Source of the DNA: Piscinibacter sp. | Lineage (GTDB): Bacteria > Pseudomonadota > Gammaproteobacteria > Burkholderiales > Burkholderiaceae_C | Length of the DNA: 64,000 nt | Reading direction: 5' to 3' | Assembly (NCBI GenBank): GCA_019635485.1 | Contig: JAHBZL010000010.1 | Location: forward strand, 1 to 64,000 | Shown: positions 1 to 64,000 of the stretch, piece after piece | Layout: every line of letters starts with the position of its first letter | How positions within the stretch are numbered: position 1 is the stretch's first letter | Program-made: the position numbers and the translations under genes | Notes under the pieces: generated by a model | Seen by the model: only the letters and a program-made list of their open reading frames with translations | What the model was told of the DNA's origin: nothing | Database searches by the model: none

Positions 1-2337
1 GCCGCGCGGCTTGTAGATGCCGCAGCCGATCACCAGGTCCGGCTCCACTGGTTCGATGTAGGAGGTCTTCGGCGCCACCTCGCCGGTGGCGGGGTTGCGG
101 AAGTCGTAGTCGATCCAGCCGCCGCCCAGCGGCGCGACGGTGAAGGCGTCACGCGTGAGCTTGGCGCCGTCGACCCCGGGGATCGTGGTCACCGACACGC
201 CGACCCGCGCCGAATTGCCGGCAAACGCGCGGTAGGTGCCCTGGCGGTCGAGCGCGAACACGTACATGTCGCGGTCGCAGAAGGCCGCCGCTTCCGCCGT
301 GATGCGGTCCAGCGCCGGGCGGCCGGCCTCGCGGTACAGCGCGACCGCCTTGCGCACCAGCGCGAGCGCCTCGTCGGCGCTGCCTTGGCGCAGCCGGAAC
401 GAGCTGACCGCCGCGGCCAGCTGCTCGGCGCGTTCGCCGAGCTGTGTCGACCCGTGCATCGCCTGCTCGACCATCTGGGTGTTCTGCTGCGTCAGCTCGT
501 CGATGTGCGTGACGGCCTGCGAGATCTGCGCCAGGCCGGCACTCTGCTCGGCGGCGCTGGCGGAAATGCGGCCGACGTTGTCGGCCACCTCGCGGATGCC
601 GCTGACGATCTCGCCGAAGGTGCGGCTGGTGTGCTCGATCTGCTGCACGCCGGCCTCGACGTGCCGCACCGACTCGCCGATCAGCGCCTTGATCTCGCGC
701 GCCGAGGCCGAGCTGCGTTGCGCCAGCGTGCGCACCTCGGAGGCGACCACGGCGAAGCCACGTCCCTGCTCGCCGGCGCGCGCCGCCTCGACGGCCGCGT
801 TCAGCGCCAGGATGTTGGTCTGGAACGCGATGCCCTCGATCACGCCGATGATGTCGTGCACGCGGCGCGAGCTGGACTGGATGTCCTGCATCGACGCCAC
901 CGCCGAGCCGACGGCCTCGCTGCCCGACTCGGCCACGCCGCGCACGCGCGCCGCCAGCGCGTCGGCAGCCCGCGCCCCGTCGGCGCTGCGCTGCACGGCG
1001 GCGGTCAGCTCCTGCACGCTGGCGCCGGTCTGTTCCAGGCTGGAGGCCTGGGCCTCGGTGCGCTCGGACAGCGCGCGGCTGTCGCCGGCCAGGCGCAGCC
1101 CGGCCTGCGCGACCATCGTCGAATTGCTGCGGATCTGCGCCACCATCTCGGACAGGCGGTCGGTCATGCCGTCCAGCGTGTTGCCGACGGCCGCCAGCTC
1201 GTCGCGGCCGCTCATCTGGATGCGGGTGGCGAAGTCGCCGCCGGCGAGCTGGTTGACCGCCTTCTGCAGCATGCGCACCGCGTCGAACAGCAGCTTGAAG
1301 AAGACCGCGGCCAGGTAGCCCACGCCGAACACGGCCGCCAGGCCGGCCAGCAGCGCGAGCAGTCCGTGGCGCTGCTGCGTGGCGATGCGTTGCTCGAGCA
1401 GCGCGACCAGCCGCTGCGTCGCCGCCTGGGCCGCCCCGACGGTCTTCTCGATCGCGTGTGTGCCCTCGGCGAAGAACGCGGCCGGGTCGCCGCCGGCCGG
1501 CTGCGCCCCGCCGAACACTTCGTCGACATGGCGCGCGAACGCGCGCGACTGCGCGAGCGCCTCCGCGAAGCCCGCCGGCGCGGTTTCGCCGCTGCGTTCG
1601 AGCGCGCGCAACGTCAGCTCGACATTGGCCGTCTGATGCTCGAGCAGGTGCTGGAAGCCGATCACGCGATCGCGCGCGCCGGTGGCGCCGCCCGGGTTCT
1701 TCAGCAGGCCGGCGCCCAGGCCGCGCATCTGACCCATCGCCTCGGTCCAGGGCAGCACGTGCTCGACCACCATGTGCATCAAGTGGAAGGTCGGTGCCTC
1801 CGGGTCGAGCAGCAGCTGGCTCTCTTCGGCGTGGCGCAGCACCGAGAGGCGCAGCTTCTCGATCAGCTCGGTGTGCAGCGCGAAGCTGCGGCCGGCGTCG
1901 GCGGGGTGCTCGCCGGCCGCCAGGCTGGCCAGCGCACCGCTCAGTTCGCGCCACTCGGGCGCGAGGGGGAAGGTGTCCACGCTGTCGGCCGCACGCTGCG
2001 CAGCCGCCAGCGCTGCCTTCAGTTCGGTACGTGCCTGATCCAGCGGCGTCTGCGCGGCCGCGTCGCCGGCCATCACGCGGTTCAGCAGCCCGCGGTGGTG
2101 CTGCGTGGCGACCGAGAGGTCGATCGTGCGCGCCACCAGCATGGCGCCTTGTGTCTCGGCGCGGGCGATGCGCATGTCGGCCTGCACGGACAGCAGCGAC
2201 TGCACCGTCAGCCAGCCGAGCGGCAGCGTCAGCGCGAGCGCCATCAGCGCGACCTTGGCCGGGAAGCGCAGGCGGCGCATCAGGTGGACACCCGGCGTGA
2301 GCAGCCGGTCCAGGACAGTGGAGAAGAGCGAGGCCAT
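1..2337 (-). CDS. Methyl-accepting chemotaxis protein with C-terminal Cache-like domain (partial, 3' end outside window)
   Basis: Transmembrane chemoreceptor that would signal to CheA/CheW. Reading from the start at 2337 there are 779 codons with no stop before the window edge. In order: a short N-terminus, TM1 (about residues 17-35), a long helical periplasmic region of some 280 residues, TM2 (about 322-345), a HAMP segment, and the signalling hairpin with the tip motif FQTNILALNAAVEAARAG near residue 505. After the signalling domain, from about residue 650, comes a Cache-like domain (YVFALDRQGTY, then YDFRNPATGEV and VIGCGIYK). That places a sensory fold in the cytoplasm, behind the signalling domain. 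The start has an AAGGA site about 7 bases upstream. The ligand cannot be told; the neighbouring nar genes do not prove nitrate sensing. Confidence 0.9.
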   Translation of the reverse strand, partial: MASLFSTVLDRLLTPGVHLMRRLRFPAKVALMALALTLPLGWLTVQSLLSVQADMRIARAETQGAMLVARTIDLSVATQHHRGLLNRVMAGDAAAQTPLDQARTELKAALAAAQRAADSVDTFPLAPEWRELSGALASLAAGEHPADAGRSFALHTELIEKLRLSVLRHAEESQLLLDPEAPTFHLMHMVVEHVLPWTEAMGQMRGLGAGLLKNPGGATGARDRVIGFQHLLEHQTANVELTLRALERSGETAPAGFAEALAQSRAFARHVDEVFGGAQPAGGDPAAFFAEGTHAIEKTVGAAQAATQRLVALLEQRIATQQRHGLLALLAGLAAVFGVGYLAAVFFKLLFDAVRMLQKAVNQLAGGDFATRIQMSGRDELAAVGNTLDGMTDRLSEMVAQIRSNSTMVAQAGLRLAGDSRALSERTEAQASSLEQTGASVQELTAAVQRSADGARAADALAARVRGVAESGSEAVGSAVASMQDIQSSSRRVHDIIGVIEGIAFQTNILALNAAVEAARAGEQGRGFAVVASEVRTLAQRSSASAREIKALIGESVRHVEAGVQQIEHTSRTFGEIVSGIREVADNVGRISASAAEQSAGLAQISQAVTHIDELTQQNTQMVEQAMHGSTQLGERAEQLAAAVSSFRLRQGSADEALALVRKAVALYREAGRPALDRITAEAAAFCDRDMYVFALDRQGTYRAFAGNSARVGVSVTTIPGVDGAKLTRDAFTVAPLGGGWIDYDFRNPATGEVAPKTSYIEPVEPDLVIGCGIYKPRG

Positions 2338-2372
2338 GGGCATTCCTTCGGCGGAGACAGCGCGTTCATCGC

Positions 2373-2400
2373 TTATCGGTTCGCCCAACCGCACACTGAA
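2373..2400 (-). promoter_or_regulatory. Sigma-28 (FliA)-like promoter for the chemoreceptor
   Basis: On the minus strand, ACCGATAA (2380 to 2373) matches 7 of 8 bases of the sigma-28 -10 element GCCGATAA. TTCAGTGT (2400 to 2393) lies 12 bases upstream and matches 5 of 8 bases of the -35 element TAAAGTTT. It sits about 36 bases before the start codon, with the ribosome-binding site between. Chemoreceptor genes are common FliA targets. This is a pattern match only. Confidence 0.5.
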
Positions 2401-2415
2401 GTTCGCGACTGGCGT

Positions 2416-2429
2416 TTGATATGCGTCAG
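2416..2429 (+). promoter_or_regulatory. FNR/Anr-like binding site upstream of narK1
   Basis: TTGATATGCGTCAG fits the FNR/Anr/Dnr consensus TTGAT-N4-ATCAA, with a perfect left half and a 3-of-5 right half (GTCAG). It lies in the divergent gap between the chemoreceptor and narK1, about 155 bases before the narK1 start. Oxygen-responsive control is usual for nar operons. No convincing -10 box was seen at the expected distance, so the transcription start is open. Confidence 0.5.
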
Positions 2430-2584
2430 CCCGTGAATAAATGCGGGTTGGCCTCGTTCTTTCGAACGATGCCGGCCGCGGCCGCGCCTCGTCCTTCTGC
2501 CGCGCGGTGCGCGTTCCACCGGTGGATGCCGCCGCGACCCCTGCCTTCCTACAGTGGTCCCACCTAGAAAGCGAGGGATCTCTC

Positions 2585-3835
2585 ATGAACAAGCAGGGGC
2601 AGGCGCTGTCGGTGCTGATCGTCAGCACGCTGGCGTTCACCGTGTGCTTCATGGTCTGGATGATGTTCGCGGTGATCGGCATCCCGATCCGCAAGACGCT
2701 GGGCCTGAACGCCACCGAGTTCGGACTGCTGACCGCAATGCCGGTGCTCAGCGGCTCGCTGGTGCGCGTACCGCTGGGCATCTGGACCGACAGGTACGGC
2801 GGCCGCATCGTGATGGCCGTGCTGCTGGCTGTCACCGTGCCGGCGATCTGGCTGATGGCCTACGCGACGGAGTACTGGCAGTTCCTGGTGATCGGGCTGG
2901 TGCTGGGGCTGGCCGGGGGGTCGTTCTCGGTCGGCACACCCTACGTGGCGCGCTGGTTCTCGAAGCAGCGCCAGGGCTTCGCGATGGGCGTGTTCGGCGC
3001 CGGCAATTCGGGCGCGGCGGTCAACAAGTTCGTCGCGCCGGCGATCGTCGTCGCGTTCGGCTGGACCATGGTGCCCAAGGTCTATGCCGCGATCATGCTC
3101 GGCACGCTGATCCTGTTCTGGTTCTTCAGCCACAGCGACCCGGCGCACCAGGTCTCGAAGCAGACGAAGTTCGTCGACCAGCTCAAGGCGCTGAAGGACC
3201 CGCGTGTCCTCAAGTACTGCCAGTACTACTCGATCGTGTTCGGCGGCTACGTGGCGCTGTCGCTGTGGATGGTCCAGTACTACGTCGGCGAGTACGGCCT
3301 GGACATCCGCGCCGCGGCGCTGCTGGCGGCCTGCTTCTCGCTGCCGGGCGGCGTGCTGCGCGCGATCGGCGGCTGGCTGTCGGACAAGTACGGCGCGCAC
3401 AGCGTCACCTGGTGGGTGATGTGGGTGAGCTGGATCTGCCTGTTCCTGCTCTCGTACCCGCAGACCGACTTCACGATCCTGACCGCCAACGGCCCGAAGA
3501 CCTTCCACGTCGGCCTGAACGTCTACGCCTTCACCGGCCTGATGTTCCTGCTCGGCATCGCCTGGGCGTTCGGCAAGGCGAGCACCTTCAAGTACATCAG
3601 CGACGACTACCCGCACAACATCGGGACGATCAGCGGCATCGTCGGCCTGGCCGGCGGCCTGGGCGGCTTCGTGCTGCCGATCATGTTCGGCGCGCTGATG
3701 GACCTGACCGGCATCCGTTCCAGCGCCTTCATGCTGATGTACGGCGTGGTCTGGGTCTCGCTGATCTGGATGTACTGGACCGAGGTGCGCCGCACCGAGG
3801 TGATCGGCCCCCGCTCGCAGGCCTTCGCCAGGTGA
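2585..3835 (+). CDS. narK1: Nitrate/nitrite transporter, NarK1 type (MFS)
   Basis: Major facilitator protein of 416 residues with about 12 hydrophobic segments, placed at the head of the nar cluster. The conserved NarK loop and helix appears as GLAGGSFSVGTPYVARWFSK followed by GVFGAGNSGAA. NarK1-type proteins are generally proton-coupled nitrate uptake carriers. The ATG at 2585 (MNKQGQA) was chosen because the first membrane helix follows directly. An in-frame ATG at 2441 would add 48 residues rich in Arg and Ala, unlike the family. The FNR-like site lies upstream, and narK2 follows after a repeat-bearing gap of about 115 bases. Confidence 0.92.
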   Translation: MNKQGQALSVLIVSTLAFTVCFMVWMMFAVIGIPIRKTLGLNATEFGLLTAMPVLSGSLVRVPLGIWTDRYGGRIVMAVLLAVTVPAIWLMAYATEYWQFLVIGLVLGLAGGSFSVGTPYVARWFSKQRQGFAMGVFGAGNSGAAVNKFVAPAIVVAFGWTMVPKVYAAIMLGTLILFWFFSHSDPAHQVSKQTKFVDQLKALKDPRVLKYCQYYSIVFGGYVALSLWMVQYYVGEYGLDIRAAALLAACFSLPGGVLRAIGGWLSDKYGAHSVTWWVMWVSWICLFLLSYPQTDFTILTANGPKTFHVGLNVYAFTGLMFLLGIAWAFGKASTFKYISDDYPHNIGTISGIVGLAGGLGGFVLPIMFGALMDLTGIRSSAFMLMYGVVWVSLIWMYWTEVRRTEVIGPRSQAFAR

Positions 3836-3840
3836 ACAAC

Positions 3841-3909
3841 CCCCCCGTAGCGCCTGCGGCGCTCCCCCCAGGGGGCGCCGCCGACGGACCGGCGGAGCCG
3901 GGTCCGTGG
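3841..3909. repeat. Dispersed GC-rich palindromic repeat, copy A
   Basis: Intergenic element between narK1 and narK2 with several inverted repeats (for example CCCCCC with GGGGGG, and ACGGACCGGCGGAGCCGGGTCCGT). The 17-base core at 3885-3901 recurs exactly, in opposite orientation, at 18934-18950 inside a longer similar element. It lies inside what should be one transcript, so it may fold in the mRNA. Confidence 0.65.
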
Positions 3910-3950
3910 CGACCGCTTGATGGCCGGGCGCTCATTCAAGGAGCTATCGC

Positions 3951-5606
3951 ATGAACACCACCACCACCGCCGCCGGCGCGCCCGCGCGGCCGACGAGCGG
4001 CGCCGACATCGTCGACTGGCGCCCCGAAGACGACGCCTTCTGGGAGTCGACCGGCAAGAAGGTCGCCTACCGCAACCTCTGGATCTCGGTGCCGGCCCTG
4101 CTGTGCGGCTTCGCGGTCTGGGGCATGTGGGGAATCATCACCGTGCAAATGCACAACCTGGGCTTCCCGTTCAGCCAGGCGCAGCTGTTCACGCTGACGG
4201 CGATCGCCGGCCTGGCCGGCGCGACGATGCGCATTCCGGCCTCGTTCCTGATCCGCCTGGCCGGCGGGCGCAACACCATCTTCCTGACCACCGCGATGCT
4301 GCTCGCGCCGGCCATCGGCACCGGCATCGTGCTGCAGCACAAGGACTGGCCGCTGTGGGCCTTCCAGCTGATGGCGCTGTGGTCCGGCGTCGGCGGCGGC
4401 AACTTCGCCTCGTCGATGTCCAACATCAGCACCTTCTTCCCGAAGCGCCTGCAGGGCACGGCGCTCGGGCTGAACGCCGGCCTGGGCAACTTCGGCGTCA
4501 CCACGATGCAGGTGGTGATCCCGCTGGTGATGACGCTGAGCATCTTCGGCGGCCTCGGCGGCGAACCGGCGCTGCTGGTCAAGGACAGCGGCTGGATCTT
4601 CGGCAAGATCGCTGCCGGCACGCCGACCTGGATCCAGAACGCCGGCTTCGCCTGGCTGCTCTCGCTGGTGCCGCTGTCCATCCTGTGCTTCTTCGGGATG
4701 AACAACCTGACGACGGTTTCGCCGGCTATCGGCGGCACGATTCCCGCCTTCCTGAAGATCGTCTGGCTGTACACGCTGTCCTTCGTGCCGGCGGGCATCG
4801 GGCTGTATCTCTACCTGCCCGCGCCGACCGGCCTCGGCCTGCTGAACATGTGGGTGGCGATGCCGCTGATCATCGTCGCCACGCTGTTCACGATGAAGCT
4901 GACGGCCTTCGGCACGATGAAGGACAACATCGCCAGGCAGTTCGCGATCTTCTCGAACAAGCACACCTGGTCGATGACCGTGCTGTACATCGTGACCTTC
5001 GGCTCGTTCATCGGCTTCTCGATGGCGCTGCCGCTGGCGATCACGGTGATCTTCGGCATCAGCCACGTGCCCGATGCGAACGGGGTGATGCAGCACACGC
5101 TGAAGAACCCGAACGCGCCCTCGGCGCTGACCTATGCGTGGATCGGTCCCTTCGTCGGCGCGCTGATCCGCCCGGTCGGCGGCTGGATCTCCGACAAGGT
5201 CGGCGGCTCGATCGTCACGCAGCTGATCTCGGCGGTGATGGTGGTCGCCTCGGCGGCGGTCGGCTACGTGATGCTGCTGGCCTACCAGTCGGCCACGCCG
5301 GAGCAGTACTTCTTCGTCTTCATGGTGCTGTTCGTCGTGCTGTTCGCGGCCAGCGGCATCGGCAACGGCTCGACCTTCCGCACCATCGGCGTGATCTTCG
5401 ACCGCCAGCAGGCCGGCCCGGTGCTCGGCTGGACCTCGGCGGTGGCCGCCTACGGCGCCTTCATCGCGCCGGTGGTGATCGGCGGCCAGGTCAAGGCCGG
5501 CACGCCGCAGTTCGCGATGTACGGCTTCGCCGTGTTCTACGCGCTGTGCCTGGGACTGAACTGGTGGTTCTACCTGCGCCGCAACGCCTACGTGAAGAAC
5601 CCTTGA
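3951..5606 (+). CDS. narK2: Nitrate/nitrite transporter, NarK2 type (MFS)
   Basis: MFS protein of 551 residues. It carries the nitrate signature region GVGGGNFASSMSNISTFFPK and then GTALGLNAGLGNFGV, and a second family motif, IRPVGGWISDKVGG, in the C-terminal half. NarK2-type carriers usually exchange nitrite for nitrate. It is longer than a simple NarK (about 460) because of an enlarged middle region, about residues 205-330, with extra hydrophobic segments. The N-terminal tail (about 45 residues) is hydrophilic with a WRPEDDAFWESTGKK motif. An AAGGAG site precedes the ATG. It forms a pair with narK1 and is followed by the small ORF and narG. Confidence 0.93.
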   Translation: MNTTTTAAGAPARPTSGADIVDWRPEDDAFWESTGKKVAYRNLWISVPALLCGFAVWGMWGIITVQMHNLGFPFSQAQLFTLTAIAGLAGATMRIPASFLIRLAGGRNTIFLTTAMLLAPAIGTGIVLQHKDWPLWAFQLMALWSGVGGGNFASSMSNISTFFPKRLQGTALGLNAGLGNFGVTTMQVVIPLVMTLSIFGGLGGEPALLVKDSGWIFGKIAAGTPTWIQNAGFAWLLSLVPLSILCFFGMNNLTTVSPAIGGTIPAFLKIVWLYTLSFVPAGIGLYLYLPAPTGLGLLNMWVAMPLIIVATLFTMKLTAFGTMKDNIARQFAIFSNKHTWSMTVLYIVTFGSFIGFSMALPLAITVIFGISHVPDANGVMQHTLKNPNAPSALTYAWIGPFVGALIRPVGGWISDKVGGSIVTQLISAVMVVASAAVGYVMLLAYQSATPEQYFFVFMVLFVVLFAASGIGNGSTFRTIGVIFDRQQAGPVLGWTSAVAAYGAFIAPVVIGGQVKAGTPQFAMYGFAVFYALCLGLNWWFYLRRNAYVKNP

Positions 5607-56864: not shown

Positions 56865-59267
<2,403 letters not shown>

Positions 59268-59280
59268 CGCGCCGGGCCGA

Positions 59281-60306
59281 TCAGGCTTCGCCGCGGCGCA
59301 CGCTGTCGACCAGCCGGCTGACCGACGGGGCCATGTTCAGCGGAACGAGTTCGATGCCGGGGTGGGTGGCGGCGAAGACCCGGAACAGCTCGTCGGCGAA
59401 GGCGTGCCCCACCGAGGCGATGCCGCCGAAATCGATCTCGGCACGCCGGAACTGCGGCAGCCGCGCCGCCGCACGCTTGGCCTGGGCCCGCGACTCCAGG
59501 CCGAGCTGGGCATCGCTGAGCAGGTGCAGCGGCACGACGGTGCGCTCGAACGCGTAGGCCTGGCCGTCCAGGCTGTGGCTGCGCAGGACGGTGTCGATGC
59601 AGCGCGTGGAGTCCAGCGCGATGCCGACGAACACGGAGGTGCCGTGGTCGGCCACGGCACGGCGCGGATGCCAGCGCGCGCCGTCCCAGGCGCGGCACTG
59701 GAAGGCATGGCGGTTCGCGTGCACGTCCAGCACGTCCGCCAGCTGGGCGGTGAAGTACAGGCCGCGCCCGCGGTGCCGCTCGGGCTGGCTGGTCAGCTTG
59801 CCCTTGCTGAGCTCGAGCGTCGCGAGCGACGGGTCGTCGATGCCGAAGGCCGCCTCGATGCGCTCGAACAGGCCGCAGCCGTCGTCGGAGATCAGCAGCT
59901 GGAGGTGGCTCGCGGTCTGGCGCATCGACACCGTCACCTGGGTGCCGCCGCTGTGGTCGATCGCGTTGTTGATCAGCTCGGTGAAGGCATGCTGGGCCAG
60001 GCGCGCCACCGGCGTGGACAGCGTGAAGCGCGGCGCAAAATCGCGGACCCAGGGCTGGTGTTCGTCGAGCCCTTCGAGCGGGTAGCGGCGCACCACCTGG
60101 CGCAGCAGGCCCGGCGCATGGCGGGGCCGGCGTGCGCTGCCCTGGTTCACGAGCCACTGGGCCTCGACGAGCTGGCGCAGCGCGCGATTGGCGCTGCGCC
60201 GGCTGACCTCGAGCCGGGCCGCCACGTGCTCGGCCAGCGTCGCCGGGTGCGACAGCGCCGCTTCGGTGATCCAGGGGGTGACGGCGTTCAGCGCGGTGCG
60301 GGGCAT
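59281..60306 (-). CDS. HTH - GHKL ATPase - STAS-like (DUF4325) regulator
   Basis: 341 residues in three parts. Residues about 15-60 look like a winged helix ([20 protein letters not shown]). The middle is a histidine-kinase-type ATPase: N-box [13 protein letters not shown]1 [13 protein letters not shown]2 [12 protein letters not shown]. The last 80 residues ([20 protein letters not shown]) match the STAS-like DUF4325 fold. No receiver or phosphorylated His is evident. It joins parts used separately in anti-sigma/anti-anti-sigma switches. It is on the opposite strand to ppsA and fba; the target is unknown. Confidence 0.82.
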
Positions 60307-60507
60307 GTGAGAGTCCGGTGGCAGGCACCCCGGGCCAGGGTCCCATGGGCATCCAGTGTCGACGTGCCGCCTGCGCGCAACCACGCGAACAGCACCGGTT
60401 TCAGGGCCCAGTTCCGGGGTGGGCCGTCGCTAGAATCGGTTGAACGGTCGGAGTTACGAACCGGTTACGCCCGGCCTGCGCGACACCTCTTTCATCCGGA
60501 GACCACC

Positions 60508-61572
60508 ATGCCCCTCGTCTCGATGCGCCAGCTGCTGGACCACGCCGCCGAAAACGGCTATGGCATCCCGGCCTTCAACGTCAACAACCTGGAGCAGGTG
60601 CAGGCGGTGATGACCGCCGCCGCCGAGGTCGGCGCGCCGGTGATCCTGCAGGCCAGCGCCGGCGCCCGCAAGTACGCCGGCGAGCCCTTCGTCAAGCACC
60701 TGATCCAGGCCGCGCTCGAGCAGTGGCCGAACATCCCGCTCGTGATGCACCAGGATCACGGACAGAGCCCGGACGTCTGCAAGGGCGCGATCAACCTCGG
60801 CTTCAGCTCCGTGATGATGGACGGCTCGCTGCAGGCCGACGGCAAGACGATCGCCAGCTACGACTACAACGTCGACGTGACGAAGAAGGTCGTCGACATG
60901 GCGCACGCGCTGGGCGTGACGGTCGAAGGCGAACTGGGCTGCCTCGGCTCGCTGGAAACCATGCGTGGCGACAAGGAGGACGGTCACGGCACCGAGGCGA
61001 CGATGACGATGGACCAGCTGCTGACCGATCCGGAGCAGGCGGCCGACTTCGTCAAGCGCACGCAGCTCGATGCGCTGGCCATTGCGATCGGCACCAGCCA
61101 CGGCGCCTACAAGTTCACCCGCAAGCCCACCGGCGACATCCTGGCCATCGGCCGCATCAAGGAGATCCACCGGCGCATCCCGAACACGCACCTCGTCATG
61201 CACGGCAGCTCCAGCGTGCCGCAGGATCTGCTGGCGCAGATCCGCCAGTACGGCGGCAACATGAAGGAGACCTACGGTGTGCCGGTCGAGGAGATCCAGG
61301 AAGCGATCAAGCATGGCGTGCGCAAGATCAATATCGACACGGACATCCGGCTCGCGATGACCGGAGCGATCCGCAAGTACTTCGTCGAGAACCCCGAGAA
61401 GTTCGACCCGCGCGACTACCTGAAGCCGGCCCGCGAGGCGGCCCGGCAGATCTGCCGCCAGCGCTACGAGCAGTTCGGCTGCGCGGGGCAGGCCGCGAAG
61501 ATCAAGGCGCTGCCGCTCGGCGACGTGGCGAAGCGCTACGCGAGCGGCGAGCTGGCGCAAACGGTGGTCTGA
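60508..61572 (+). CDS. fba: Class II fructose-1,6-bisphosphate aldolase
   Basis: 354 residues of the zinc-dependent type. Metal-binding and active-site stretches are [39 protein letters not shown] and [14 protein letters not shown]. It is the Calvin-cycle/glycolysis CbbA-like form usual in Burkholderiales. A CCGGAGA site precedes the ATG. A strong terminator follows, so it is transcribed apart from purC. Confidence 0.97.
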
Positions 61573-61595
61573 CCCCGGCATCGAGTTCGTCGAAC

Positions 61596-61617
61596 ACCCG
61601 GCCTCGGCCGGGTTTTT
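61596..61617 (+). terminator. Intrinsic terminator after fba
   Basis: ACCCGGCC and GGCCGGGT form an 8-base stem around TC (in practice a CTCG loop), followed by TTTT. It lies 24 bases after the fba stop, before purC. Confidence 0.85.
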
Positions 61618-61683
61618 CATGCCCGGCACCTAGAATATCGGGCCCACCTTGCTGCGTCCCCCGGGCGCCGCCCGAGGCCGACC

Positions 61684-62580
61684 ATGACCGACGACGCCCT
61701 GTACGACATCCAGATCTCCTCGCTGCCGCTGCTGTCCAAGGGCAAGGTGCGCCACAACTATGCGGTCGGCGAGGACCGCATCCTGATGGTCGCCAGCGAC
61801 CGCATCAGCGCGTTCGACGTCATCATGAACGAGCCGATCCCGGGCAAGGGCCGCCTGCTGACGGAGATGGCGCTGTTCTGGTTCGACAAGCTCAAGCACG
61901 TCGTGCCGAACCACCTGACCGGCGAGGACCCGGAGAGCGTGGTGACGCCCGAGGAGCGTGCGCAGGTGCGTGGCCGCTCGATGCTGGTCAAGCGCCTGAA
62001 GCCTCTGCCGATCGAGGCGGTCGTGCGTGGCTACCTGGCCGGCAGCGGCTGGAAGGAGTACCAGCAGACCCAATCGGTGTGCGGCGTCGCACTGCCGCCA
62101 GGCTTGAAGAACGCCAGCAAGCTGCCCACGCCGATCTTCACGCCGGCGACCAAGGCCGAAGCCGGCGAGCACGACGAGAACATCGACTTCGAGCGGACCA
62201 GCCAGATCATCGGCCGAGACCTGGCCGAGCGCGTGCGCGATATTTCGATCCGCCTGTACGAGGAGGCCGCAGCCTTCGCCCTGACCAAGGGAATCATCAT
62301 CGCCGACACGAAGTTCGAGTTCGGGCTGGACAAGGACGGCACGCTGACCCTGATGGACGAAGTGCTGACGCCGGACTCTTCGCGCTTCTGGCGTGTCGAG
62401 GGGTATCAGGAAGGTGTCGCTCCCGTAGGCTTGGACAAGCAGGTGCTGCGGGATTGGCTGGAGCAGGCGGTGGTGGATGGGAAGAGGTGGGATAAGAGGG
62501 GGAAGGCGCCAAGCCTGCCCCCGGGGATCTTGGAACGAACGCGAGAGTCTTACGAGGCGATTCGCCATTTGACGAGGTAG
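61684..62580 (+). CDS. purC: Phosphoribosylaminoimidazole-succinocarboxamide synthase
   Basis: 298 residues. Ligates aspartate to CAIR in purine synthesis. The N-terminal ATP-binding motif is [14 protein letters not shown], followed by [15 protein letters not shown] and [14 protein letters not shown]; the metal/ATP site is [20 protein letters not shown]. From about 62395 the codon use changes: AGG arginine codons, GAT, GGG and CGA appear often, whereas the first 240 codons are GC-ending. The protein still looks intact. The change suggests recombination reaching into the gene. Confidence 0.96.
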
Positions 62581-62583
62581 CGT

Positions 62584-63708
62584 ATGGAGGGGCGCTATCT
62601 CAGTCGGATTGACGCGACAATTGCTGCGGCGTCGTCAAACGTTGAAAGACTTCAACTAATCGCGAGAAAGGCGAGCTATCTCGCGAGGATTGGCAAGTTC
62701 TCGGAGGCTTGGAAACTGGCCGAGAACCTGAGGAATAGCAAGGAGCGATACGCCTTCCCAGAGATATCTGTGAGCCTTGCGATACTGGATGGAGTCTCCG
62801 CCGTCTACCAAGACCATGCGGAAGAGGCACGCGATCGACTTGCGCGCGCGAGTGTGCTTGCTAAGGCACTCGGGCTATCAGATTTGTTGGCACTGTCGAG
62901 CGTTTGGCTCGCGCACCTTGCGTTTGGGCGCCTTGATGTTGGGTGCATGGGAACGGAACTGAAATCGGCGTTGCTGCATGCGGGCCAGGATGATCACGAT
63001 TGCTTGACTCGAGCAAGCCTGGTTGTGGCGGTGGCGGTTCATCTCGCGGGAGATACTTCGGGCGCGGCAAAATGGTATGAGCGTGCTAGGAGCCACGCGC
63101 TATCGATTGGCGATGAGGCTACTATCAGTTCGCTCATGTACAACCGAACTGCAATGCAGATCGCCAACTTCCGTCAACAAGCGCTCCAGAATGGTGTCCC
63201 GTCGGGCGATGCTAGAGTGGTCGTGTCGGCCGCTGAGTCTACTGAAAGTTTTGATAGCCTAGTTGGGGTAGTTAGTCTCGGAGAATTCACGCCCTTACTG
63301 AAGGCGCAGACCTATTCTCTCGCTGGTCGATTCTCAGACGCAGATGACATTTACGACTACGCGCTCGGAGCCTCGCTAAGCAATGCTCAGGAAAGAAGTA
63401 GATGTTGGCTGCTTGCGGACTGGGCTTCGTGTCAGGTTCATATTGGAAGAAGGGATCTTGCCGCGGCCACTGCAATGGAAGCGATGAAGTACCTTTCCCC
63501 TTCGGTGCAGCCCGATGACCTAGCCGCCGCTCATGGTCGGCTGGCACAGGTCTTCGAATTGCTTGGCGATGGATTATCCGCCAGAGTGCAGGTTGAGCAG
63601 TCAGTGGATAAGTGGCGCGAGTTCTCCGTGATTCAACGCGCAATATTGGAGCAAGGAGTTGAGGTTGAAGGCGTATACCTTGAGTGCGTGGGTCGAAACT
63701 CCGAATGA
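62584..63708 (+). CDS. Low-GC TPR-like protein of unknown function, inserted between purC and purE
   Basis: 374 residues, no signal peptide or membrane helix. Helical pairs with TPR-like spacing and small residues recur through the protein, for example ASYLARIGKFSEAWKLAENL, VVAVAVHLAGDTSGAAKWYE, TYSLAGRFSDADDIYDYALG and AHGRLAQVFELLGDGLSARV. This suggests a scaffold that binds another protein. I know no named family. Base composition is very unlike the surroundings: 27 G/C in the 60 bases at 63241-63300 against 42 of 60 at 61021-61080. It starts 3 bases after purC. Signs of transfer are strong; the function is not deducible. Confidence 0.85.
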   Translation: MEGRYLSRIDATIAAASSNVERLQLIARKASYLARIGKFSEAWKLAENLRNSKERYAFPEISVSLAILDGVSAVYQDHAEEARDRLARASVLAKALGLSDLLALSSVWLAHLAFGRLDVGCMGTELKSALLHAGQDDHDCLTRASLVVAVAVHLAGDTSGAAKWYERARSHALSIGDEATISSLMYNRTAMQIANFRQQALQNGVPSGDARVVVSAAESTESFDSLVGVVSLGEFTPLLKAQTYSLAGRFSDADDIYDYALGASLSNAQERSRCWLLADWASCQVHIGRRDLAAATAMEAMKYLSPSVQPDDLAAAHGRLAQVFELLGDGLSARVQVEQSVDKWREFSVIQRAILEQGVEVEGVYLECVGRNSE

Positions 63709-63748
63709 TTCATAACGATCGCTGAACTTGCGGAACGAGCAGGACTTT

Positions 63749-64000
63749 ATGCAGGTGGTTGCAACAGTAGTAATGGGCTCTCGCAGCGACTGGGACACCA
63801 TGCGCGCCGCCCGTGACGTCCTCGTTGAATTCGGCATTCCCCACGATTGCCAGGTCGTGTCCGCCCACCGCATGCCCGACGAGATGTTCGCCTTTGCGGA
63901 AGCGGCGGCGGGCCGAGGACTGAAGGCCATCATCGCGGGCGCAGGCGGAGCCGCGCACCTGCCGGGCATGCTCGCAGCGAAGACGACCGTTCCGGTGCTC
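63749..64000 (+). CDS. purE: N5-carboxyaminoimidazole ribonucleotide mutase (partial, 3' end outside window)
   Basis: First 84 codons of PurE, which converts N5-CAIR to CAIR just before the PurC step. Family motifs: VVMGSRSDWDTM, the catalytic His in VVSAHRMPDEMF, and IIAGAGGAAHLPGMLA. The ATG at 63749 follows a GCAGGAC site. The first ten codons and the leader are AT-rich, like the preceding gene, while the rest is GC-rich, marking the right edge of the foreign segment near 63780. Confidence 0.95.
   Translation, partial: MQVVATVVMGSRSDWDTMRAARDVLVEFGIPHDCQVVSAHRMPDEMFAFAEAAAGRGLKAIIAGAGGAAHLPGMLAAKTTVPVL

Follow-up and report, generated by a model that had tools for sequence, protein, structure and literature searches.

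A purC-linked TPR-superhelix gene of Piscinibacter: a probable long-resident neighbour of purC whose allele may at times be replaced as a block

We analyzed a stretch of 64,000 nucleotides from Piscinibacter sp. (contig JAHBZL010000010.1, positions 1–64,000; hereafter, the window), in which a gene for a tetratricopeptide repeat (TPR)-like protein lies between purC and purE at the 3′ end. All three genes are on the + strand. The upstream partner, purC (SAICAR synthetase; 61684..62580), matches Pfam SAICAR_synt at 5.5e-75 and ends with a TAG stop codon at 62578-62580. After 3 nt, it is followed by a 374-codon open reading frame (ORF) at 62584..63708, which encodes a 374-residue TPR-superhelix protein of a purC-linked family (hereafter, the TPR gene and the TPR protein). 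The GAGG at 62574..62577, within the end of purC, precedes the ATG start codon of the TPR gene by 6 bases and is a possible ribosome-binding site. The TPR ORF is separated by 40 nt from purE (AIR carboxylase), which begins with the ATG at 63749 and runs beyond the window end; its first part (63749..64000) matches Pfam AIRC at 6.5e-32. Both pur proteins thus match their Pfam families, with purE truncated by the window end; a first-pass annotation made from the letters alone had described them as intact. In an extension of the sequence beyond the window (L025), purE is followed by purK and then by a tsaC/Sua5-like ORF, both named by reading of the ORFs. No promoter was found by a scan of positions 500-4600 of this extension, and a terminator scan of the same region gave one terminator-like site (597-614), upstream of purC, which is no more than was found in shuffled sequences.

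The base composition changes around the TPR gene. In 200-base windows, GC content was 0.52-0.61 across the TPR ORF, as compared with 0.62-0.77 over positions 59000-62599. The tract of low GC at third codon positions (GC3) was located by a two-break likelihood model on these positions. GC3 was 0.561 within the tract and 0.893 outside it, and the log-likelihood was -556.3 for the two-break model and -639.4 without a break. The tract (62533..63779) begins within the last 15 codons of purC and ends some 10 codons after the start of purE, with 2-log-unit intervals of 62509-62536 for the start and 63767-63851 for the end. The composition drop that the first-pass annotation had placed at 62395..63790 is therefore real, and its end within purE was confirmed; however, it starts about 140 bases later than had been proposed.

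This drop had been read as foreign, strain-specific cargo newly spliced in between the pur genes. The atypical composition of the gene and of both its borders is indeed what a recently acquired single-gene island, new to the operon, would show, and purC and purE are direct neighbours, about 70-230 nt apart, in the named Burkholderia, Cupriavidus and Polynucleobacter loci. The distribution of the gene argues against such an island. In a protein search of 100 genomes, the TPR family was detected in 20, which included the window's own genome and all seven other members of its genus. By profile search, the family was present in 8/8 genomes of the genus, in each with one linked copy directly behind purC. 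In the stretches around purC, the gene was directly 3′ of purC on the same strand in 20/20 carriers. When 399 genomes drawn from the bacterial family were searched with the profile, 111 were positive at E<=1e-60, and purC was directly upstream in 90 of the 94 further loci obtained from this search. Overall, the linkage to purC was found in 110/113 carrier genomes, and in two of the three remaining carriers (G434 and G438) the locus is cut by a contig edge. The distance from the purC stop codon to the first start codon or to the start of the family match had a median of 2 nt and was at most 100 nt in 105/110 genomes; the outliers G189 (1139) and G251 (532) are artefacts of the copy or piece that was keyed. 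Because the position is the same in all eight genomes of the genus and in 110/113 carriers, the sequences indicate that the TPR gene has long resided next to purC in this genus and is not a new insertion.

In the order outside the bacterial family, the TPR family was detected in 0/40 genomes, and in a class-level draw of 369 genomes the sole match at E<=1e-25 was the window's own genome. By tblastn, no match was obtained in 72,556 plasmid records or in 50,697 phage records. A scan of IMG/VR gave no close relative, the single-protein query limiting its reach to close relatives, and a first scan of genome contigs with a single-protein query found no relatives. Only weak matches to PHROG were observed (phrog_5208 in 3/20 family members, best E 0.00016, and phrog_5823 in one), and no structural match at E<=0.001 was found among viral structures. 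A phage or plasmid origin was rejected for lack of evidence in these searches. For the genus, the island explanation is refuted by the shared position; the low GC of the gene in all eight members and the lack of plasmid, phage and close IMG/VR relatives also speak against it, and we consider it highly improbable.

To map the presence of the gene, a purC tree was built from 59 of the 61 genomes for which the surroundings of purC were extracted, namely those with a purC match of at least 700 nt. On this tree, presence needs 3 changes, as compared with a mean of 16.8 when shuffled, and a single gain with two losses would give these 3 changes. Among 80 named purC loci, the gene was found in two, from Piscinibacter defluvii (L138) and from a Burkholderiaceae metagenome-assembled genome (L159). 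In the literature that we searched, nothing was found on a purC-linked TPR gene. The spacing to purE was only 23-60 nt in three genomes (G000, G003 and G005). In four relatives tested, a thioredoxin-plus-TPR gene, which we take to be CnoX/YbbN-like, is located before purE, between purE and either the TPR gene or purC (L072 2092-3111, L073 2052-3056, L069 2282-3310 and L077 1055-2065).

The low GC is shared by the relatives within the genus. In 8/8 genus members, purC exceeded the TPR gene in GC3 by 0.24 to 0.35, and in these members GC3 of the last 16 purC codons was 0.38-0.62 versus 0.77-0.91 in the purC body. The mean dip in GC3 at the purC end was 0.19 in 20 carriers and 0.07 in 41 non-carriers (standard deviation 0.15 each). 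The break within purC was at codon 284 in the window, and G003 and G005 had it at codons 228-229; in the latter two, which have the order purC-TPR gene-purE, the low-GC3 tract stops 24-29 codons past the start of the purE match. The mean GC3 deficit was also at least 0.17 in the genera g173, g44, g138, g147 and g12. The first-pass annotation had named, as the sign against transfer, a gene at the same place with normal composition in most relatives. The place is the same; the composition is low throughout the genus and close to that of purC (mean GC3 difference <0.10) in 31/39 carrier genera.

Within the genus, closely related genomes carry very different TPR genes. In the pair G001/G002, PurC was 95% identical and the TPR protein 28%; in G006/G007, the values were 89% and 27%. 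G001 and G002 had 93% identical DNA as far as the first 18 nt of the ORF, beyond which lay a gene-sized block that could not be aligned. Downstream of the stop codon, similarity resumed after about 33 nt in G001 and after about 138 nt in G002, and the flanks were 93% identical on both sides. In G006, the region upstream of purC (L018, about 10-373) contains repeated sequence with many overlapping matches to the same G007 region. In the PurC tree, G001 and G002 were joined with support of 100/100, and G006 and G007 with support of 95/79. The tree of the TPR gene was built from the eight genus members, 24/105 other carriers hand-chosen for spread, and three tandem copies. In this tree, G001 joined G004 and G007, and G002 joined G006. 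Approximately unbiased (AU) tests rejected the PurC pairings in the gene tree (p 0.00017 for G001+G002 and 0.00026 for G006+G007). Within the genus, the alleles appear to fall into old classes of low GC content that are shared across species.

Rapid in situ divergence of a weakly constrained gene, with no exchange, would account for the TPR protein evolving faster than PurC in 26/27 genera with pairs. However, for G001/G002 the synonymous distance (dS) of purC was 0.25, whereas the next gene had a nonsynonymous distance (dN) of 0.87 with saturated dS. Furthermore, the gene tree conflicts with the PurC tree, and divergence in place is rejected for the two pairs in the genus. It may hold in slowly diverging genera; overall, we consider it very unlikely.

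Across the wider family, identities of the TPR protein mostly track those of PurC: where PurC was more than 95% identical, the median identity of the TPR protein was 90% (22 pairs). The ratio of dS in the TPR gene to that in purC was above 2 in 9/24 non-overlapping pairs, plus one saturated pair (median 1.70); for purE and purC, it was above 2 in 1/15 pairs (median 1.13). Median dN/dS was 0.18 for the TPR gene and 0.10 for purC over 41 overlapping pairs in which PurC was at least 92% and the TPR protein more than 60% identical; such values correspond to purifying selection. The tables of pairs (identity, dN/dS, dS, genus comparison and nearest neighbour) omit G150_2, G251_2, G189_2, G272_2 and G272_3, which are extra tandem copies and pieces of broken ORFs. 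Identity was also plotted along 11 hand-picked pairs, comprising nine suspects and two controls. In G359/G416, it was 78-85% over the gene versus 97-100% just outside, and the control pairs G387/G257 and G124/G228 showed no low-identity tract. At the sequence level, homologous recombination through the flanking genes is thus supported in relatives of the window.

A paralog that is not behind purC (G000:C35:43428-44483; L131 5369-6520; L132-L137) was detected in 7/8 genus genomes, with E 8e-32 by profile in the window's own genome. In contrast to the linked gene, its GC3 is normal (0.85-0.93) and its identities follow the species (97% in G001/G002 and 79% in G006/G007). Since the paralog behaves normally in the same pairs, the odd evolution belongs to the purC-linked copy. 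As in the linked protein, R35, R143, D177, R197 and C283 are kept in 7/7 paralogs and D279 in 6/7, whereas N187, R319, W164 and G37 are lacking in 7/7. The paralog is preceded by a PAS/histidine-kinase hybrid in G001 and followed by a protein-kinase-domain gene in the window's own genome. The paralog in G004 (L137 5468-6673) has an apparent break in the reading frame, and the purC-linked copy in G251 (L242) has one TAG; in both cases, sequencing error or decay is possible.

Tandem copies directly behind purC were found in the genus g12, three in G272 (L246 5404-8746) and two in G189 (L247 2223-4457). Their existence keeps serious the explanation that old tandem duplicates behind purC were lost differently in different lineages, with no recombination; such losses could also leave unlike alleles between similar flanks. 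However, the observed tandem copies group by genome in the gene tree and therefore look recent, all eight genus members have one linked copy, and the 78-85% identity within the G359/G416 tract is unlike that of a pair of unrelated copies. We regard this explanation as unlikely, although it has the strongest claim among the alternatives.

The AlphaFold model of the 374-residue protein was confident (predicted local distance difference test score, pLDDT, 92.4; predicted template modelling score, pTM, 0.90) and contained 18 helices. It is an antiparallel helix-pair superhelix, the structural matches are mostly TPR proteins, and, judged from its helices, the superhelix is predicted to consist of eight TPR-like repeats. 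The TPR-like character proposed in the first-pass annotation is borne out by this model and by a weak Pfam TPR_MalT match of the window protein (E 0.0011; 18.8 bits, below the cut-off of 45). TPR_12 was matched at E<=0.01 by 15/20 family members. MalT itself carries ATPase and DNA-binding domains. In contrast to proteins with MalT domain III or a MalT-like TPR region (PF17874, PDB 1hz4), neither an ATPase nor a DNA-binding domain was found by the Pfam search of the window protein. The best solved structure by sequence profile was the LGN/Pins TPR scaffold (PDB 5a7d; E 4.3e-07, profile positions 74-182), and LGN chains head the Foldseek list; LGN/Pins is an adaptor of animal cell polarity, and the likeness is limited to the repeat type. 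NsdA family TPR-like regulators (NCBIfam NF053720) were matched weakly by 6/20 family members (best E 4.6e-06), and the window protein matched no NCBIfam model at E<=0.01.

Rap/RRNPP receptors (PDB 8rsv, 4i9c and 4gpk) are 8-12% identical to the window protein, and a receptor of this type would bind a small peptide signal. APPBP2 (21.5), MalT domain III (20.4) and an APC/C subunit (20.3) scored nearly as high, so the match appears to reflect the TPR superhelix in general; the VIA-align comparison was restricted to Foldseek's own list. An adjacent propeptide gene is a hallmark of Rap/RRNPP receptors, and the 3 nt before and 40 nt after the TPR ORF leave no room for one. RRNPP systems have been described in Firmicutes and in the elements of these bacteria (PMC10075063). 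A Rap/RRNPP-like receptor is the most improbable of the readings considered.

We also examined conservation along the protein, leaving out the broken or partial rows G150, G150_2, G251, G251_2 and G254, as was done in the table of paralog residues. R35, R143, D177, N187, D279 and R319, which are assigned to the predicted inner groove, are polar and nearly fixed, with D177 in 114/114 rows. The positions assigned to the groove had 1.80 bits, as compared with 2.69 for outer positions (p 1.7e-7).

In the genus, old allele classes extend across species boundaries, as in balanced polymorphism, which makes a role in recognition or defence possible; repeated block replacement also fits with a gene under diversifying selection that meets phage or competitor proteins. 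However, the window protein matched 0 defence families in PADLOC-DB 2.0.0, and the 20 family members gave one weak match each to RTasTM (E 0.0015) and JetB (E 0.0077). The defensive function suggested in the first-pass annotation therefore gained no positive evidence. A simple arms race is disfavoured by the conservation of the predicted groove, the low dN/dS and the lack of a second, co-varying neighbour in G001/G002, where both flanks are alike. We regard diversifying selection for recognition or defence as distinctly unlikely. Similarly doubtful is a fixed chromosomal recognition locus, consisting of a single gene behind purC, whose deeply divergent alleles would be kept across species of the genus by balancing selection and moved as a gene-sized block through homologous recombination in the core flanks; it would be a bacterial analogue of trans-species polymorphism that involves no mobile element.

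The reading that we prefer, at a probability of roughly 60%, is that of a long-resident TPR gene behind purC, belonging to a lineage-restricted family in which no catalytic or DNA-binding domain is recognised, the allele of which is at times replaced as a block, and which likely encodes a cytosolic adaptor. The position would be inherited, while the coding sequence diverges quickly and would at times be swapped as a gene-sized block via recombination in the conserved flanks. The gene would probably be translated from the same message as purC, so that it may be co-expressed with PurC. The protein would likely be a cytosolic adaptor, with an inner groove that binds a conserved protein or peptide partner and an outer face that is free to vary; an effect on purine synthesis may follow.

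Several results weigh against this reading. One carrier, G140 (L314 1-2924), has the gene with no purC upstream, and a contig edge is not the cause; by reading of its ORFs, a ribonucleotide-reductase-like gene and a lysine-rich ORF are upstream, and purE is downstream. Among the nine suspect pairs plotted, sharp borders were seen in only G001/G002 and G359/G416, and in the other seven identity was graded or fell outside the gene too. The descent of the window allele with those of G003 and G005 was not rejected (G000 held together, AU p 0.33). Therefore, recombination through the pur flanks, as the first-pass annotation had proposed, is supported for relatives (G001/G002 and G359/G416) but is only an inference for the window's own allele. 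The nearest-neighbour test did not discriminate: the TPR protein disagreed with PurC by more than 5 points in 42/110 genomes, and for purE a disagreement of more than 1 point was seen in 39/70. As purE was also much discordant, this discordance was rejected as evidence. Over 27 genera, the GC3 deficit and the divergence ratio were not correlated (rho -0.13, p 0.50); against mean protein identity, rho was 0.38 (p 0.052) in 27 genera. The deficit was thus rejected as a marker of exchange, and the causes of low GC and of allele exchange may differ. Finally, the groove was assigned by canonical TPR numbering, not by coordinates, with the fifth repeat left out, and a conserved groove with a variable outside is usual in TPR proteins.

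A stretch of low GC among core genes is commonly interpreted as a sign of recent transfer. At this locus, the position appears to be old and it is the allele that would move, which is a caution for island finding. The locus also draws attention to an uncharacterised, purC-linked gene that was detected in 111/399 genomes drawn from one bacterial family, and in this genus the normally behaving unlinked paralog makes the odd evolution of the linked copy directly testable.
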